DNA of 38,520 bases, from IMG/VR virus record IMGVR_UViG_3300025151_000114, positions 1 to 38,520 of that record. One strand, given 5' to 3'. This document shows positions 11,784-38,428 of the stretch, piece by piece. Position numbers and translations under genes: made by a program. The first letter of the stretch is position 1. Each line of letters starts with the position of its first letter. The notes under the pieces were generated by a model, which did no database searches, had not been told where the DNA came from, and was given only the letters and a program-made list of their open reading frames with translations. The DNA is from a virus.

Positions 11784-13430
11784 ATGAAGAAATTTTTATT
11801 AGCAGTACTCGCTATCTTCGGGGTTGTGTCAATCACAGCTTGTACCGTAGAAGCAGAAACATTTAAGATTGCGATGATTACCGACGCAGGTGACATCGAT
11901 GATAAATCGTTCAACCAAGGTACTTGGGAAGGTATCGAAGAGTGGGCGTTAGAAAACGAAGTATCATATAAATATTATAAACCAACAGAAGTATCAGACG
12001 ATGCGTATGTTGCAGCAATCGACTTGGCTGTAGTAGGTGGAGCAGAAATAATTGTAACACCAGGTTTCTTATTCGAACCAGCTATTTACACAGCACAAAC
12101 TAAATACCCAGATGTTAAGTTCGTACTCATTGACGGTGTACCACACCCAGGAGACTGGACAACATTTGAAGTAGCTGAAAACACAAAATCAATATTATTT
12201 AGAGAACAAGAGTCAGGATTCCTAGCAGGTTATGCTGCAGTTATGGAAGGCTACAGAGAATTAGGATTTATGGGCGGTATCGCTGTACCAGCAGTTGTAC
12301 GCTTTGGTAAAGGCTATGTTGCAGGTGCATACTATGCAGCAAAAGAATTAGGACTTGATGACTTTGAGTTCGATATGACTTACTATGAATATCTAGGTGG
12401 TTTTGCACCAGATGATAGTCATAAAGCAAAAGCAGCATCTTGGTATACTGCAGGTGTTGAAGTGATACACGCAGCAGCAGGCGGCGCTGGTAACTCAGTA
12501 ATGGCAGCAGCAGAAGAACACGAAGGAGCTAAAGTTATTGGTGTTGATGTTGACCAAGCATCACAATCAGAAACAGTTATATCATCAGCAATGAAAGCAT
12601 TAGGCGTTGTTGTAAAACAAGCATTGACTGAATGGAAAGAAGGAACATTTGCAGGTGGCGCAACCGTCACATTAGGTGCAAAACAAGGAGCAGTTGGTTT
12701 ACCATTAGGCGAATCATTTAAGTTCACTAACTTCACAGAAGAGCAATACCTAGCAATCTTAGGTAAACTTGCAGACGAAACAATCTTATTACCGATGGAT
12801 GAAGAAGGACTTGACGCATACATTGAAACACTCAAGCCTGAACCAGCACCAACAAGTATTGAAGTTGCATTAGATACACCAGAAGGAGCAGAAATACTCT
12901 TGACAGTTGTAGGTAAAGTCATTGCAATCACTAACCACAAAACATTTGTTATCGCAGATGGCAAAGCAGCTATCTTCGTATATGATGCAAGTGCAGAGTT
13001 TATTGGCGACTTAGCAATTGGCGACATTATTGAACTAGAAGGTACAAGAGGCGGATACAAAGGTATGAACCAATTGTCACCAACTAGTGTAGTTAAAATT
13101 GCAGACTTAGTAATGTTAGACTTACCAGTTATAGATGGTAACACAGCAGACTTATCTGGTGACTTGTCACACTTACAAGGACACTACTTCACATTTACAG
13201 GGGTAACTATCAGTGCAGTATCTGAAGATAACTGGGGTAACCTCACATTCACATTTACTATTGGGGAGTTAACTTTCCCAGTGCGTTATGACTCAAGATT
13301 AGCAGGGTCAGAGGCAGCTGCAGAACACTTGAAAGCATTTGCAGAAGGTGCAACTGTAGACTTACACTTAGTCTTAGGATGGTATGACGGACCTCAGTTC
13401 TTATATCAAGCAGTAAGTAATATAACATAA
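11784..13430 (+). CDS. BMP/PnrA-like nucleoside-binding lipoprotein with C-terminal OB-fold region
   Basis: A 548-residue secreted lipoprotein. It has a signal peptide (MKKFLLAVLAIFGVVSITAC) with a lipobox at C20, so it should be anchored to the outer face of the membrane. Residues about 25-345 are a type I periplasmic-binding fold of the BMP family: AMITDAGDIDDKSFNQ, TPGFLFEP, FREQESGFLAGY, GGAGNS and GVDVDQ, the ligand-contact blocks of PnrA/TmpC. Residues about 355-548 hold two OB-like beta units, the first beginning VVGKVIAITNHKTFVIADGK. BMP proteins deliver purine nucleosides to ABC importers. No permease or ATPase gene is nearby, so it would need the host's. It stands alone between its own promoter-like site and a terminator, facing the late genes. 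The combination of domains resembles lipoproteins of Mollicutes and other low-GC Gram-positives, a sign of host origin. Confidence 0.9.
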   Translation: MKKFLLAVLAIFGVVSITACTVEAETFKIAMITDAGDIDDKSFNQGTWEGIEEWALENEVSYKYYKPTEVSDDAYVAAIDLAVVGGAEIIVTPGFLFEPAIYTAQTKYPDVKFVLIDGVPHPGDWTTFEVAENTKSILFREQESGFLAGYAAVMEGYRELGFMGGIAVPAVVRFGKGYVAGAYYAAKELGLDDFEFDMTYYEYLGGFAPDDSHKAKAASWYTAGVEVIHAAAGGAGNSVMAAAEEHEGAKVIGVDVDQASQSETVISSAMKALGVVVKQALTEWKEGTFAGGATVTLGAKQGAVGLPLGESFKFTNFTEEQYLAILGKLADETILLPMDEEGLDAYIETLKPEPAPTSIEVALDTPEGAEILLTVVGKVIAITNHKTFVIADGKAAIFVYDASAEFIGDLAIGDIIELEGTRGGYKGMNQLSPTSVVKIADLVMLDLPVIDGNTADLSGDLSHLQGHYFTFTGVTISAVSEDNWGNLTFTFTIGELTFPVRYDSRLAGSEAAAEHLKAFAEGATVDLHLVLGWYDGPQFLYQAVSNIT

Positions 13431-23387: not shown

Positions 23388-24245
23388 CTATGTTATTGTC
23401 CTTGATACAACATTTGATATAGTCTCACCACTTGCTTGTGCGGTTGCATACATTGTAAATGTTGCGAATGATGGTTGTGAACTTGTTACTGTAACACTTG
23501 AACCACTTGCTATCGTACCTCTATTTACATCTGGTGTAGAGTCACTTTCTTCTGCCATAATTACCGCTGAGTTGTTATCATTGTTTGTAACTTGTATTTG
23601 CCACTGGTTAACCATATAAATACCTGCGGATATACTTGGGTCTGCTGTTTGTGCTTGCCCTGCTGCGTAAACAACTGTTGAAGCCCAATATACTTTATCT
23701 ACTTCTGTGCTACCAAAATATACTTTACTTGGCTGTGCTGTTCCCCAATATAAATTGTTTGTTCCAGTTGCTGGAGCTGAAGAACTTACTTCAATATAGT
23801 CTAATGCGACATCTCCTCGGTATCCTCCGGCTGCTACATTTCTAAACCGCAAAGCTGTGGCTCCTGTAAAAGTCGCAGTTTCAGTATTCCATTGATTACC
23901 TTGGTTACCTGTGCTACTCCAAATACTTGTCCACGAACTACCTGTGTATGCTTCTAAATACAGCGTTCCTTGCTCGATTCCGTATTGATGTGTGTAAAAA
24001 TCAACAGTTCCTTCTGTTTCACCACTGGGTAAGTTATATTGTATAATATCTGTGTTACCAGAACTATACGAACTACCACTTGATGTTTCTACATAAATGT
24101 AATGAGAACCACTATATGCTGAACTTGGCCCTGTACTACCTGATGGAGTGCCTCCACTTCGCCTTGCCCAGCCTGTTGTACTAAATTGAGTAATATTGGT
24201 CCAAGAGCCAAAACTTGATTCAAAACTTTCTAAATATGTTGACAT
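23388..24245 (-). CDS. MAM-like-domain adhesin/tail fibre protein
   Basis: A 285-residue serine/threonine/glycine-rich protein. Residues about 5-155 match the MAM jelly-roll pattern: FESSFGSWTNIT at the start, a GWARRSGGTPSGSTGP loop, GSHYIYVETS, FYTHQYG and a closing ALDYIEVS. MAM domains are adhesive beta sandwiches, found in some phage and bacterial surface proteins. Residues about 165-195 hold short W/VY repeats (LYWG, KVYFGSTEVDKVYWAS), common in phage structural proteins. The C-terminal 90 residues resemble an Ig-like beta domain. It lies at the end of the fibre gene group and probably helps in host-surface recognition. Ribosome site GGGAGG. Confidence 0.72.
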   Translation of the reverse strand: MSTYLESFESSFGSWTNITQFSTTGWARRSGGTPSGSTGPSSAYSGSHYIYVETSSGSSYSSGNTDIIQYNLPSGETEGTVDFYTHQYGIEQGTLYLEAYTGSSWTSIWSSTGNQGNQWNTETATFTGATALRFRNVAAGGYRGDVALDYIEVSSSAPATGTNNLYWGTAQPSKVYFGSTEVDKVYWASTVVYAAGQAQTADPSISAGIYMVNQWQIQVTNNDNNSAVIMAEESDSTPDVNRGTIASGSSVTVTSSQPSFATFTMYATAQASGETISNVVSRTIT

Positions 24246-33229: not shown

Positions 33230-35020
33230 CTACTGTGGTGTTCCTTCTTGTCGTCTCTGAACATTGCCTAATCCGTCTTCTTGACCTTCAGCTTGTTCAG
33301 GATTCATAGTCTGGAAAACCATCTCCGCAATCATTTGAGGGTCATACCCCGCCTGCATTGCTTGCATTACCTGTTGTGTAATCTGTGATGCTTTTTCAAT
33401 AGATTTATCTTGTCTATCTTTTTCGATACGAGCAAGAATGACATCTCTATTATCTGGGTTAAACGCTTTGACAATATCTTCTGGTCGAACTAACTCAATA
33501 CCAGGTGCGTATTGTAGTTGCCACTCAGACAACATACGCATTGTTTCGCGTTTTGTTTCTTCGTTGTTTTGCATTTTAGCTTGTATATCTATGTTGAAGT
33601 CCCACGCGAGGTCAACGAACTCCTCTGCTCTAAATGGAACATACTCATACTCAAAGTCATTGTTTGGATTTGGGTCACGCATACGCATCAATCTATCATC
33701 AGTGTAATATTGTATTGCGTTTTGTAACAACGCATAACTTACTTTTTCTATAAAGTGTTCAAACAATACCATCTCGTCTTGGAAGACAACAAGTGAACGC
33801 TGTATCATTGAGTTGACACCACCACTTGTTTGGATACTACCTGAACTCGCTCCTGTGTTAAAGTCAGTCATACCTGTAAAATCATCAATCTCTTTTTTGA
33901 GATATTCCATATAATTCATCAGTGTCATCGGTATATCAGCTACATCGACATTACGGATAACATTTGCTAGGTCTGGATACTTGGATAAGAACACAAGTCC
34001 GAACGCATTACCATACTTACTTATAATTCTTGGGTCAATACCACTACCTTCATACACAATCTTCTGTGGATTCTGGTACAATGTTGCTAATGTACCTATG
34101 ATTGATTGTATTTTGTTTAACATTTTGACATTTGGTAGTATCAATTGTGCATCACTGATACCCCAGAAGTCTTGACGCTGTTCATATTGTCTTAACATAA
34201 TAAATGGAAAGACATTTGGTTGTATTTCTTCGATTTCTTTAATCATTACACCATCTGCAATGTATTTTACACAAATTGTGTAACCAACGCCGTCTTCATT
34301 TGGTTTTTTCTCATAATATGTAATTAAATCTACCACATCTTCTTGATATGAGCTATAATCTCTGTTGTTATAAATTTCACCACGGTCTTCTTGTCCCATT
34401 ATGGCGTTGCCTGCAAAGCTTCTTCGTTCTTCAAACTCCTTTTTCTTTTCTTTGTCGATTGAAGGGTCCATCATTATGTGTTCTTTAGTCGTACGGACAA
34501 AAGTTCCGCAGTATAAAGCTTCTTCGAGTGTAAATGCCTTCGGGTCAACAAAGAATGTAGAGGGTTCGATTTCTTGAACTAATATTTCACCTTGGTATAG
34601 GTGCCCTCTTGTACCGCCAATGTAGTTTTCATCCCATCCGACATACAAAATGCCAGTCCCTAACAATCTGGAAGTACGAATAACCTTTGCAATGTGCTTT
34701 TTCATATTAAGTTTATCAAATAACTGTTCATAAAAGCGTTGCAACATCCATATTTGTGGTTCATTCTCTGGTGCTAACGGTATCAACTCGCCGAGATAGT
34801 CGTCGAGCATCAAGTTACCTGTCTTAAACTTCTTAACTTTGTTTACATAGTTACTTTGTGGTTTTGGTATCCAGCTTGGCATACCGCCTTTGATGGTCCA
34901 CTCTTCGCCACGGTCAAATGAGTCAAGTTCTTTCCATAAGTTGTCTTTCTTATTGCGTCTATATTGTATTGCCTCACTAGCTCTCTGCCATATGTCATTT
35001 ATATTATCTTTGTATGCCAT
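33230..35020 (-). CDS. Portal protein
   Basis: A 596-residue portal of podovirus type. It begins MAYKDNINDIWQRASEAIQY and contains a wing/stem pattern with GTGILYVGWDENYIGG, VQEIEPSTFFVDPKAFTLEE, YCGTFVRTTKEH and a LPNVKMLNKIQSIIG helix. It ends in a glutamine/methionine-rich helical tail (ASQITQQVMQAMQAGYDPQM). I start it at ATG 35020, seven bases after GGAGGT; an in-frame GTG at 35029 overlaps that ribosome site. The start overlaps the 147-residue gene by 17 bases. It forms the dodecameric DNA channel at one capsid vertex and works with the terminase encoded at 36875-38428. Confidence 0.88.
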   Translation of the reverse strand: MAYKDNINDIWQRASEAIQYRRNKKDNLWKELDSFDRGEEWTIKGGMPSWIPKPQSNYVNKVKKFKTGNLMLDDYLGELIPLAPENEPQIWMLQRFYEQLFDKLNMKKHIAKVIRTSRLLGTGILYVGWDENYIGGTRGHLYQGEILVQEIEPSTFFVDPKAFTLEEALYCGTFVRTTKEHIMMDPSIDKEKKKEFEERRSFAGNAIMGQEDRGEIYNNRDYSSYQEDVVDLITYYEKKPNEDGVGYTICVKYIADGVMIKEIEEIQPNVFPFIMLRQYEQRQDFWGISDAQLILPNVKMLNKIQSIIGTLATLYQNPQKIVYEGSGIDPRIISKYGNAFGLVFLSKYPDLANVIRNVDVADIPMTLMNYMEYLKKEIDDFTGMTDFNTGASSGSIQTSGGVNSMIQRSLVVFQDEMVLFEHFIEKVSYALLQNAIQYYTDDRLMRMRDPNPNNDFEYEYVPFRAEEFVDLAWDFNIDIQAKMQNNEETKRETMRMLSEWQLQYAPGIELVRPEDIVKAFNPDNRDVILARIEKDRQDKSIEKASQITQQVMQAMQAGYDPQMIAEMVFQTMNPEQAEGQEDGLGNVQRRQEGTPQ

Positions 35021-35447
35021 CAATATCACCTCCGCGCGTGCTTTCTGGTTCTTTCATTGCTTCGCGCTGTCCACCAAGAGCTGTAATATATTTATATATT
35101 TTACTTTGCTTCAAAACTTCAGGTTTATTGTTTATAATTGCGTCTGCAACCAACTGAACCTCTTTCATTATCTCTGCTCCTTTACCTTCGTTCTCAGGCA
35201 AGTCATAATAACCCATTTTTTGCAGAGATGCTTGAATTTTTGCAACTATTGCGCCTTCTTTTATCTTACCTTGTTGTTCTGGTCCTGTTGCTTTTGACAA
35301 ATCTAGCCCTGAACCTCTGTTCATTGTGTCTTGTTGTGGCATAGGACCAGGCATTGGACCAGGCATAGGCCCTGGCATCGGTCCTTGTGTTGGTTGTGGT
35401 GCTGATTTACCCTTCATTCCTTGCATTTTGCTAAAATAATCTTGCAT
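35004..35447 (-). CDS. Unknown protein with N-terminal DYFSKM motif and GPMP repeats
   Basis: A 147-residue protein. It starts MQDYFSKMQGMKGK, a motif also found at the end of the 54-residue protein encoded at 22545-22709. Four tandem GPMP units follow (residues 22-37), then a helical region (GAIVAKIQASLQKMGYYDLP) and a helix-rich C-terminal half. There is no membrane segment. The ribosome site is TAGGAGG. It lies just upstream of the portal gene and may be a portal- or head-associated protein; a small terminase subunit seems unlikely because no DNA-binding helix-turn-helix is visible. Confidence 0.65.
   Translation of the reverse strand: MQDYFSKMQGMKGKSAPQPTQGPMPGPMPGPMPGPMPQQDTMNRGSGLDLSKATGPEQQGKIKEGAIVAKIQASLQKMGYYDLPENEGKGAEIMKEVQLVADAIINNKPEVLKQSKIYKYITALGGQREAMKEPESTRGGDIDGIQR
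35337..35384 (-). repeat. Tandem 12-base repeat encoding GPMP, four copies
   Basis: The four 12-base copies vary only at third codon positions. Short proline-rich repeats of this kind usually act as flexible linkers and are prone to change in copy number. Confidence 0.85.
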
Positions 35448-35458
35448 TTTGTAGCCTC

Positions 35459-35722
35459 CTACTTGCTAATCTTCCTTGGAAGTCCAAATTCAGGTGCCAT
35501 TCCTGGTGGAAATAGCTCTCCTGGCTTGTAATTTGCCGGTTCTTCCATTGGTTTGTTCATTGTTTCTATCATTTCTTCCAATTGTTTTATTTTTGCTTCG
35601 TAATCTTCTCTTTTAGAAACTTTAAGATAGATTTTAAAACGAGCAGCAACGAGCCCGCCAAGAAGAAAACCGAATAAAAATATAAAACAAAAAGAAAGCC
35701 AATAAAAAAGTTGTTCATACAT
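35459..35722 (-). CDS. Small membrane-anchored protein, unknown
   Basis: This 87-residue protein has one N-terminal membrane segment at about 5-27 (LFYWLSFCFIFLFGFLLGGL), then a basic stretch, a short coiled coil (EDYEAKIKQLEEMIETM) and a proline-rich tail (KPGELFPPGMAPEFGLPRK). The positive residues after the membrane segment predict a cytoplasmic C terminus. The ribosome site GAGGAGG overlaps the end of the HPr-like gene, two bases away. No family was recognised; a membrane-docking or lysis accessory role is possible. Confidence 0.6.
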   Translation of the reverse strand: MYEQLFYWLSFCFIFLFGFLLGGLVAARFKIYLKVSKREDYEAKIKQLEEMIETMNKPMEEPANYKPGELFPPGMAPEFGLPRKISK

Positions 35723-35723
35723 A

Positions 35724-35933
35724 TTATGCCTCCTCTAAAATGCTATAGATTTCATCCATAACATCCATATCATTTGTTATCACATCGATATTATCTATAT
35801 CTACCAGTGACATTACCCCTAGTATCGACTTTGCGTCGACTTGTATAAAGCCTCGTTTGAGGTATACCGCTTGTTTCGTCTTCTGTGCAGCTAATAAAAT
35901 ACTAACTGCTAGGTCTCCATTCATTGTTTTCAT
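35724..35933 (-). CDS. HPr/Crh-like protein lacking the catalytic histidine
   Basis: A 69-residue protein whose central part matches HPr-family phosphocarriers: VDAKSILGVMSL (32-43) aligns with the conserved loop around HPr Ser46, which here is Ser36. The following DNIDVITNDMDVMDEIYSIL fits HPr strand 4 and the C-terminal helix. The N-terminal strand is missing, and the HARPA site with His15 is replaced by NGDLAVSIL, so it cannot carry phosphate from enzyme I. Bacillus Crh is similar in lacking His15 and keeping Ser46. It could therefore be a target or decoy of HPr kinase, or bind a catabolite regulator. The start has GGGGAAAG. It lies in the late packaging block between small unknown genes. 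Confidence 0.7.
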   Translation of the reverse strand: MKTMNGDLAVSILLAAQKTKQAVYLKRGFIQVDAKSILGVMSLVDIDNIDVITNDMDVMDEIYSILEEA

Positions 35934-35942
35934 ACTTTCCCC

Positions 35943-36113
35943 TTATTTTTTGTACGCAGTTTTTGCTGATTCGTAGAAATCTTTTTTAGTTGGTGCGCCT
36001 TTGCTTCCTACTTTTCTAGGTTTCTCGCCTCTTTTTTTCTTTTGGTTTATATTATAGTATAAACCTTTCTTAGCCATACGACCGTCTTTTGTTTTATGAT
36101 AACCTTTTTTCAT
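35943..36113 (-). CDS. 56-residue basic protein, unknown
   Basis: ATG at 36113 overlaps the stop of the 90-residue gene (TAATG), and TAA lies at 35943. The product is lysine-rich, beginning MKKGYHKTKDGRMAKKGLYY and ending KKDFYESAKTAYKK, with a net charge well above +10. There is no hydrophobic core or cysteine. A gap of nine bases separates it from the HPr-like gene. Small basic proteins in this late block may bind DNA or the inner capsid. The frame is supported by its overlap and by filling an otherwise empty 179-base gap. Confidence 0.65.
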   Translation of the reverse strand: MKKGYHKTKDGRMAKKGLYYNINQKKKRGEKPRKVGSKGAPTKKDFYESAKTAYKK

Positions 36114-36385
36114 TACCACTTCACCTTGTCAGCCCAGTATGCTGCTGACATTTTTCCTTTCGCAATATTTTTACCGTGTCTTGCCTTGAAAGACTTTCTT
36201 CTTGCTTTGGACTTCTTGTCCATCTTTTTACCTGCGGTGCTTACACCTTGTTGTCCAAACCTGATGGTTTTGACTTGTTCTCCACTTTTAGCCACAACAA
36301 TATGTGACTTCTTTGGGTGGCCAGGTGTACGCTTTGGTTTATTATAACCGGATACGCCTGCCGCTTTTAATCTACTGTCCGCCAT
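36113..36385 (-). CDS. Small basic phage protein with SFKARHxxNIxKGKxSAAYW motif
   Basis: A 90-residue basic protein. It begins MADSRLKAAGVSGYNKPKRT, continues PGHPKKSHIVVAKSGEQVKT and IRFGQQGVSTAG, and ends ARRKSFKARHGKNIAKGKMS plus AAYWADKVKW. I recognise this as a family that recurs in unrelated tailed phages with this whole pattern conserved, usually near terminase or portal genes; its function is unknown. The ribosome site is GAAGGAGGTC. The high conservation of such a short basic protein suggests a packaging or DNA-binding role. Confidence 0.75.
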   Translation of the reverse strand: MADSRLKAAGVSGYNKPKRTPGHPKKSHIVVAKSGEQVKTIRFGQQGVSTAGKKMDKKSKARRKSFKARHGKNIAKGKMSAAYWADKVKW

Positions 36386-36875
36386 TATTGACCTCCTTCG
36401 TCCATTGGTCGTCTATCATTTGTAGTCTCTCTTTTCTTAACTTGGCTCTAAACTTCTTACGCTTCACTTCACTCTCTGCTTCTACCTTCTTCGCCATCTC
36501 GAGTATCATATCAATCTCTTCTGATGTCAAGTATACAGATAGTTGGTTTTGTAGTTGTAGTTTTCTAAATGCTTCTTTGACATCTAGGTATGCTTGTTTG
36601 AACCAACCGCGTAACCATCTAATAAATAAAGCTAATAAGATTGTTACTAACCATCCTGGTGTGAGAGCGCCTAGTCCCCACCAAAATGCTGTCCATCCTA
36701 GTGCAAAGGATTGGAACGCTGGGTCATCGATAAATGCAACGGCATACATTGGGAAGTTAAATATCAGTAATGCAAGTAGTGCATCGATACCATACTTCTT
36801 AAGAAAATCTATTGCCCATTTAAACCCAGTCCATTTCGCGAGCATCGCGAAAAATTTTTTCATCTTCTCTTTCAT
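36372..36875 (-). CDS. Membrane protein beside terminase, unknown
   Basis: A 167-residue protein. Hydrophobic segments lie at about 27-47 (GIDALLALLIFNFPMYAVAF) and about 55-87 (tryptophan-rich ALGWTAFWWGLGALTPGWLV, then TILLALFIRWL), giving two or three membrane passes. A long charged helical tail follows (DVKEAFRKLQLQNQLSVYLT, MILEMAKKVEAESEVKRKKF). I choose ATG 36875 because it overlaps the terminase stop as TAATG, the pattern used repeatedly here. GTG 36893 would add six residues. Its stop overlaps the 90-residue gene by 14 bases. No family was recognised; it could be a holin or a membrane-associated assembly factor. Confidence 0.6.
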   Translation of the reverse strand: MKEKMKKFFAMLAKWTGFKWAIDFLKKYGIDALLALLIFNFPMYAVAFIDDPAFQSFALGWTAFWWGLGALTPGWLVTILLALFIRWLRGWFKQAYLDVKEAFRKLQLQNQLSVYLTSEEIDMILEMAKKVEAESEVKRKKFRAKLRKERLQMIDDQWTKEVNNGGQ

Positions 36876-38428
36876 TAAAAATCTGTGTACCACCCATCTG
36901 GTACTTCCTCCGTTTCATCTTGTAGTGCCTTTGGCCATTGGAATCCACGCTTGCTATTCCAATTCGCGTTGCTGTTCCCTTCATACACCGCAGCTACCAT
37001 ATTGTCTGGGTCATCTGGTAGTTCCATAATCATATATCTTAGTGCATCCATTGCGTGGTTGTTTGCATCGATTGGTTTCTCGCCACGGTTCTTTGTTTGG
37101 TCGATACTGTTCTCTCTATATTTATATGCGCGTGCTTCTTTAATTGTATTGACACAGTTCGACATTATCTTGAGCTTGTGTAAACTAAAGTAGGTATACA
37201 CTTTCATAATGCCTGGCTCAAGCTGGTTGTTACCTTTCTTAAACCATAACCCATACTCGGCGTAGTGGTTAAAATAACTTCGCATTGTGGTTCCGCCACG
37301 CTTGTCACCAGCAGGGTCTGCAATGACTTGTCCGTACATCAGTCCCGGAGGGACGCGAGATAGTATGGCTTTCATTTTTGTGCTGTGGTAACTTACGGGT
37401 TTCTCTGACTCGTAGTGTTCATCGTAGATGTATAGGATGCCGTCTTCTGGGTCAATCGCGCCAGCCAACATTACCGTTGGGTCACGCAATCCAAAGTCGA
37501 CTGCAAACATTCGTTTCCAATTGGCTGGTATGACAAACGGGTCGACAATGTTATCACCTATTTGTGGGTACACCATACCCTCTGAATAATCAAAGGACCC
37601 ATAGATATACCTTTTAACCCACCAATCGGGTTTCCCCCTACCAATACGAATTTGGAAATCGGGGTCAAGATATTTGTTCTGGTAACTCGAGTGCAAGTGT
37701 GTGGATAGGAACGGGTTGTAGTCGTCCATCCTTGGATACTTCTGATTGCTAAATACCTTATCGGATTTTAACAACACCTCACTTCGTATCCATCCCACAT
37801 CCGGGTTACTACAAACAATACCGAGTAAACGCGATTTTTTTATTTTCGGCCTGTAGACTTTTGCCTTCTCATCGTACACCGTTTCAACAGTGCCATCCGG
37901 TTTTTTGGCATAAGTAATGGCTGCCTTGTTTCTGGTTCTGGCTGTCAGTTCCAAAAACACATCGTACTTCGCGTTACTGGCTTCTTCTAAATAGAACGCT
38001 GATAAGTTTAGACTTCGTATCTTATCCGCATCGTTACTTGGTAGTAGTAAAATCTTATGCCCGTTCTTGAGCGTTATGGATTCACTACCCCTTGTTTTCG
38101 ATTCCGATAAGATATGCGTATGAGGAAGAAACTTATTCAGTTCTAGGTAGGAGGTTTCCTTTAGCATTTGCATCGTTGGAGCCAGCATTGCCGATAGGCC
38201 GTTGGGAACACTGAGTGCGTGGCGTATCAACTCCAACACCGCCGTGGTCGTTTTTCCCGAACCGTATGCACCAAAAATCGCTTTGAATGTGTGTGGGTCT
38301 TGATGAAACGCTTTCTGGTGTGCTTGCGGCACATAGACAATTTCGGCAGCCATACACACATCACACACGCGGTACATTTTGCCATCGGGTTGATTCATTT
38401 TTCCGCTAGCGCAAACTTTGCATTGCAT
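36875..38428 (-). CDS. terL: Terminase large subunit with N-terminal zinc-ribbon-like motif
   Basis: A 517-residue packaging motor. The ATPase has Walker A GAYGSGKT (53-60), Walker B AFYLEE (144-149) and a motif C-like CSNP (about 206-209). The nuclease has AVDFGLRDPT (D311), IADPAGDKRG (D371) and DANNHAMDALRYM (D454, D461). Unusually, the N terminus carries two CxxC pairs (C3-C6 and C22-C25) that could bind zinc and contact DNA or a partner. ATG is preceded by GGGAGGC. It is the first gene of the leftward late block, just downstream of a promoter-like element. No small terminase gene was recognised in the window. Confidence 0.92.
   Translation of the reverse strand: MQCKVCASGKMNQPDGKMYRVCDVCMAAEIVYVPQAHQKAFHQDPHTFKAIFGAYGSGKTTTAVLELIRHALSVPNGLSAMLAPTMQMLKETSYLELNKFLPHTHILSESKTRGSESITLKNGHKILLLPSNDADKIRSLNLSAFYLEEASNAKYDVFLELTARTRNKAAITYAKKPDGTVETVYDEKAKVYRPKIKKSRLLGIVCSNPDVGWIRSEVLLKSDKVFSNQKYPRMDDYNPFLSTHLHSSYQNKYLDPDFQIRIGRGKPDWWVKRYIYGSFDYSEGMVYPQIGDNIVDPFVIPANWKRMFAVDFGLRDPTVMLAGAIDPEDGILYIYDEHYESEKPVSYHSTKMKAILSRVPPGLMYGQVIADPAGDKRGGTTMRSYFNHYAEYGLWFKKGNNQLEPGIMKVYTYFSLHKLKIMSNCVNTIKEARAYKYRENSIDQTKNRGEKPIDANNHAMDALRYMIMELPDDPDNMVAAVYEGNSNANWNSKRGFQWPKALQDETEEVPDGWYTDF

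Follow-up and report, generated by a model that had tools for sequence, protein, structure and literature searches.

A small phage protein with the HPr fold that lacks strand beta-1 and keeps the Ser46 loop

In many bacteria, HPr connects the uptake of sugars with gene regulation. In the viral DNA analysed here (38,520 nucleotides of a bacterial virus from an uncultured sample, hereafter the window), a preliminary description had pointed out a short gene, lying among virion genes, whose product resembles HPr around the regulatory Ser46 and lacks the phosphorylatable His15. The question raised by this locus is what use a phage would have for such a shortened HPr. The gene and the sites considered here are the following.

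35724..35933, minus strand: HPr-like gene without strand beta-1, 69 aa (open reading frame and translation)
35805..35840, minus strand: VDAKSILGVMSL, residues 32-43, the HPr Ser46 loop and helix 2
35826..35828, minus strand: Ser36 codon, equivalent of HPr Ser46 (alignment to HPr)
35919..35921, minus strand: Asn5 codon, equivalent of HPr His15 (alignment to HPr)
35934..35945, minus strand: codons TAA-GGG-GAA-AGT ahead of the gene, containing an in-frame stop and a probable ribosome-binding site (direct sequence reading)

The open reading frame at 35724-35933 (minus) encodes MKTMNGDLAVSILLAAQKTKQAVYLKRGFIQVDAKSILGVMSLVDIDNIDVITNDMDVMDEIYSILEEA. Ahead of its ATG stand three codons for G-E-S and, before them, a TAA, as in the identical contig L001. 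Because of this in-frame stop just upstream, the protein cannot start earlier in the frame and its short N terminus is fixed; with a stop codon and a probable ribosome-binding site directly upstream, a mis-called start was ruled out. The initiating Met lies four residues ahead of HPr position 15, so that beta-1 is missing in all 12 usable members of the family, which were gathered from related viral contigs and include the window protein. The proposed loss of the N-terminal strand is thus borne out. Bacterial HPrs matched by the same profile had open frames of 75-418 residues, most of them at least 88.

Taken as a single sequence, the 69-aa protein matched the Pfam PTS-HPr family (PF00381) with E = 0.001 and 19.5 bits, below the gathering cut-off of 23 bits, and the NCBIfam Crh-type HPr with E = 2.5e-4. 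At the level of the 12-member family the link is firm. PF00381 was matched by every member (best E = 8e-10), and the family profile retrieved solved HPr and Crh structures from the PDB at E = 1.9e-7, the next non-HPr match standing at about 1. A profile-profile comparison with bacterial HPr gave a probability of 98.8%. The alignment is gapless over HPr residues 14-53, a 40-residue block with about 50% identity to Bacillota HPr, whereas the phage protein is about ten residues shorter at the N terminus and about two residues shorter in the loop after Leu53. The profile, the fold and the gapless alignment rule out a chance motif match; the similarity to HPr is far above chance and the product is an HPr-fold protein.

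The AlphaFold model of the 69-aa protein (pLDDT 93.6) led to the same family. Its best 32 PDB matches were all HPr-family chains, with Crh first (TM 0.78), and nearly all the confident fold matches were HPr or Crh. Helix 1, strands 2-4, helix 2 and helix 3 are present in the model and superpose on HPr/Crh; beta-1 is absent, so the four-strand, three-helix open-faced beta sandwich of PF00381 is incomplete by this one strand. A second member, 42% identical and carrying His at position 15, gave the same structural result (pLDDT 87.2). A model without the HPr sandwich had been named beforehand as evidence that would refute the preliminary description; the HPr fold was seen, minus beta-1. The original reading of VDAKSILGVMSL and of the strand and helix that follow it as HPr-like is therefore borne out by Pfam, NCBIfam, the PDB profile search and the structural model.

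No match was found among annotated phages with the window protein as query, and weak matches only with a His-bearing homologue. A genome scan for a prophage copy returned none, only ordinary full-length bacterial HPrs, and no described phage HPr was found in the open PMC literature. Other phage proteins with an HPr-like fold or motif do exist, namely a BFVD ‘PTS HPr component’ of Siphoviridae sp. ctCIv11 and IMG/VR contigs L013 and L025. They differ from the present family in being separate lineages of 75-84 aa with different gene neighbourhoods. The genes at L013:4947-5177 and L025:2868-3092 form a second, separate HPr-like lineage that contains VDAKSILGV; its N terminus is distinct and no HARPA-like site is present.

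The preliminary description went too far in stating that the HARPA phosphorylation site had gone: the gapless alignment shows that it is present and degenerate. The family profile aligns phage residues 4-5 with HPr 14-15, so that Asn5 corresponds to His15 and Ser36 to Ser46. The HARPA equivalent reads N-G-D-L-A in the window protein, where the phosphorylatable His15 and Arg17 are replaced by Asn5 and Asp7; in homologues it reads H-A-G-I-A, H-S-R-L-A, H-A-K-L-A, H-P-G-L-A or H-T-D-L-A. Seven of the 12 members, which fall on five separate branches, carry His at position 15; the remaining five, the window protein among them, carry Asn or Asp. No member retains Pro18 and most have lost Arg17, its equivalent being D, R, G or K across the family. 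The seven His-bearing homologues suggest descent from a His-bearing HPr and not from bacterial Crh, with few outgroups and short sequences to go by. The family tree, with weak internal support, fits an ancestral His, which was probably replaced by Asn or Asp in the group of the window phage.

The other half of the protein behaves differently. DAKSILGV and L43 are invariant in all 12 members, and Ser36, encoded by TCG, TCT or TCA among the homologues, is invariant in all relatives found; a Ser36 not conserved among orthologues would have refuted the preliminary description. Between the window gene and its nearest homologues dN was about 0.1-0.16 and dS 0.8-1.7; over the eleven codons of DAKSILGVMSL all changes were synonymous (dN zero). 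From these sequence comparisons the gene, the Asn/Asp alleles included, is under purifying selection. Conservation was also mapped onto the residues given in PMC3724859 for the modelled contact surface of HPr with enzyme I. Within the phage family it amounts to 98% for the part formed by the Ser46 loop and helix 2, and to 60% for the part formed by His15 and helix 1.

Two points bear on how this conservation should be read. AKSILGVM was among the search patterns, so that the invariance of the motif is partly ascertained and relatives with a changed motif may have been missed. Because of this bias the portal gene, which is free of the HPr motif, was then used as a search anchor, and no degenerate version of the HPr-like gene was found among the relatives recovered in this way. 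Moreover, Ser46 caps a helix even where HPr kinase does not exist, and it is conserved also in HPrs that are not known to be Ser-phosphorylated, such as enteric HPr. Its conservation therefore does not prove phosphorylation.

The best structural match, Crh of Bacillus subtilis and relatives, is also among the closest known systems, and it is the parallel drawn in the preliminary description. Crh carries Gln at position 15 and is phosphorylated on Ser46 by HPr kinase for CcpA binding (PMC9631020). The two proteins share the HPr fold, the Ser46 loop and a replaced His15 (Gln in Crh, Asn5 in the window protein, where Ser36 is kept). The analogy holds for the window phage's own group and fails for the family, other members of which keep His15. 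Crh, moreover, is a full-length domain that dimerises by swapping beta-1 (PMC3724859), whereas the phage protein has no beta-1 in any of the 12 members and Arg17 is not conserved.

We then considered the genomic neighbourhood, of which the following features are needed.

36372..38428, minus strand: 173-aa membrane protein and terminase large subunit, opening the operon
35943..36385, minus strand: two small basic phage proteins of 58 and 90 aa (phrog_16028 and phrog_7595), upstream of the HPr-like gene
35459..35722, minus strand: 87-aa protein with one N-terminal transmembrane segment, its start one base after the HPr-like stop
33230..35029, minus strand: portal protein, downstream; motif-free search anchor

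The operon runs from the terminase through the 173-aa membrane protein, the two small basic proteins, the HPr-like gene and the 87-aa membrane protein to a 147-aa protein, the portal, a probable scaffold (by position) and the major capsid protein. The two small basic proteins also occur in marine phages. The 173-aa protein (36372-36893, minus) matched PTS EIIC very weakly (E = 0.024), probably through hydrophobic composition only. A 43-aa hydrophobic frame (35587-35718, minus) begins four bases inside the 87-aa gene in another frame; several relatives have it with the same start and length, and it could be a real overlapping gene. Further along, a tail-region protein (23388-24245, minus) carries a MAM domain (PF00629, E = 1.4e-14), best known from animal cell-surface proteins. 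The protein downstream of the terminase in Paenibacillus phage API480 is not HPr-like.

The HPr-like gene is accessory. It is absent from two contigs spanning terminase to portal (L089 and L090) and from the examined stretch upstream of the portal in a third (L085), in relatives whose portal is 69-77% identical to that of the window; a DUF502 membrane protein and a 39-aa lipoprotein stand in its place at L089:2130-2797. Alleles are also exchanged. The window and L023 share a portal at 94% identity and an HPr-like protein at 42%, and L020 and L021 an HPr-like protein at 97% and a portal at 69%. The 87-aa gene is the next gene after the HPr-like gene in most relatives, and the groups formed by its product agree better with those of the portal than with those of the HPr-like protein; these different histories rule out a fixed partnership of the two genes. 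The HPr-like gene is also found in a second type of phage, whose terminase region differs, where it adjoins the 90-aa basic protein (L019, and similarly L011). Presence or absence and allele exchange together are more in keeping with a gene for host interaction than with a component of the virion. The earlier suggestion that the protein is packaged in the virion finds no support, as phages whose portal and terminase are about 70% identical do without the gene.

The host is probably a member of the Bacillota, judging from gene similarities. Terminase and portal have good matches only to Paenibacillus phages (40% and 34%), and the ribonucleotide reductase is nearest to those of staphylococcal phages (58.6%). 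The 90-aa basic protein, which roseobacter phages and cyanophages also have, and the DUF502 membrane protein and tiny lipoprotein of L089 point away from Bacillota. The window contains no tRNA genes that could serve as a clue. It does encode a 548-aa BMP/PnrA-like lipoprotein, a nucleoside-binding ABC transporter component (11784-13430, plus), which exceeds the open frames of related bacterial proteins by about 125-180 aa. Its best matches, 47-57% identical, came from 15 of 398 genomes of the one phylum sampled, that of Alicyclobacillus. Host assignment from this protein was not decisive, since these genomes are mixed: HPr kinase is found in three of the 15, a CcpA-like regulator in few, and enzyme I in some and not in others.

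What, then, would the protein do? Because the phosphocarrier site decays while the Ser46 face stays fixed, we favour a Crh-like reading, in which the protein would be an accessory mimic of the HPr surface, acting through its Ser46 face on host regulators and not as a sugar phosphocarrier. We put the probability of this reading, drawn from sequence, structural model and analogy, at about 0.55. A phage ancestor would have taken up a bacterial HPr, which would then have lost strand beta-1 and let its histidine phosphotransfer site decay while retaining the Ser46 loop and helix 2. From the place of the gene we infer that the mimic would be made together with the virion operon, late in infection, and would bind host proteins that read HPr via the Ser46-loop/helix-2 face. 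The likeliest targets would be on the Ser46 regulatory side, HPr kinase/phosphorylase and CcpA being plausible by analogy, and the mimic may serve as a Crh-like co-regulator or as a decoy, altering host carbon control during infection. Arg17 of HPr is also a CcpA contact, and its lack of conservation in the phage family counts against these two targets, as does the small number of the 15 genomes above that have HPr kinase or a CcpA-like regulator. A narrower proposal is tentative at best: that Ser36 would be phosphorylated by host HPr kinase, the beta-1-less protein replacing or titrating P-Ser-HPr at CcpA, while its open edge might capture beta-1 of host HPr or Crh. A swap of the Crh type is impossible; that the exposed edge could accept a strand is speculation.

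The conserved face is shared with another partner, however, as the Ser46 loop and helix 2 also form part of the enzyme I interface (PMC3724859). The protein could thus poison the PTS by taking the place of host HPr on enzyme I or enzymes IIA, blocking sugar uptake during infection or against superinfection, and Asn or Asp at position 15 would make it a dead-end competitor unable to pass phosphate. We regard this as unlikely: residues 16, 17 and 20 make most of the enzyme I contacts (PMC8509676), and the helix-1 half to which they belong is the variable part, while the seven homologues that keep His have no need of it as pure poisons. That same His, which seven of 12 members carry exactly there and whose ancestral state is consistent with the tree, could instead mean that these members relay phosphate from enzyme I to host PTS proteins, the Asn/Asp forms being decayed alleles. 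The loss of Pro18 and beta-1 in all members and of Arg17 in most, together with purifying selection on the Asn/Asp alleles, makes a working phosphocarrier highly doubtful.

One surface can also serve many partners. Complexes of HPr with glycogen phosphorylase and Rsd were among the fold matches, and unphosphorylated HPr in some bacteria acts on such proteins; a target of this kind (glycogen phosphorylase, an anti-sigma factor or a PRD-type regulator) is quite improbable here, as nothing singles out such a partner. Finally, the location between terminase and portal, adjoining small membrane proteins, would suit a fold that has been reused for some task in the virion or in lysis and has nothing to do with the host partners of HPr. 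This we consider very improbable indeed, since the gene is missing from otherwise similar phages, its alleles move independently of the portal and the neighbouring membrane gene, and conservation is concentrated on the HPr signalling loop.

With the regulatory loop alone preserved, a viral HPr of this kind would amount to a separation-of-function mutant made by nature. Should the mimicry reading be true, it would show phages intervening in host carbon control through protein mimics, and the family would provide a small ready-made probe for HPr partners; if the reading through Ser46 phosphorylation is true, the virus would be hijacking carbon catabolite control by means of a signalling mimic.
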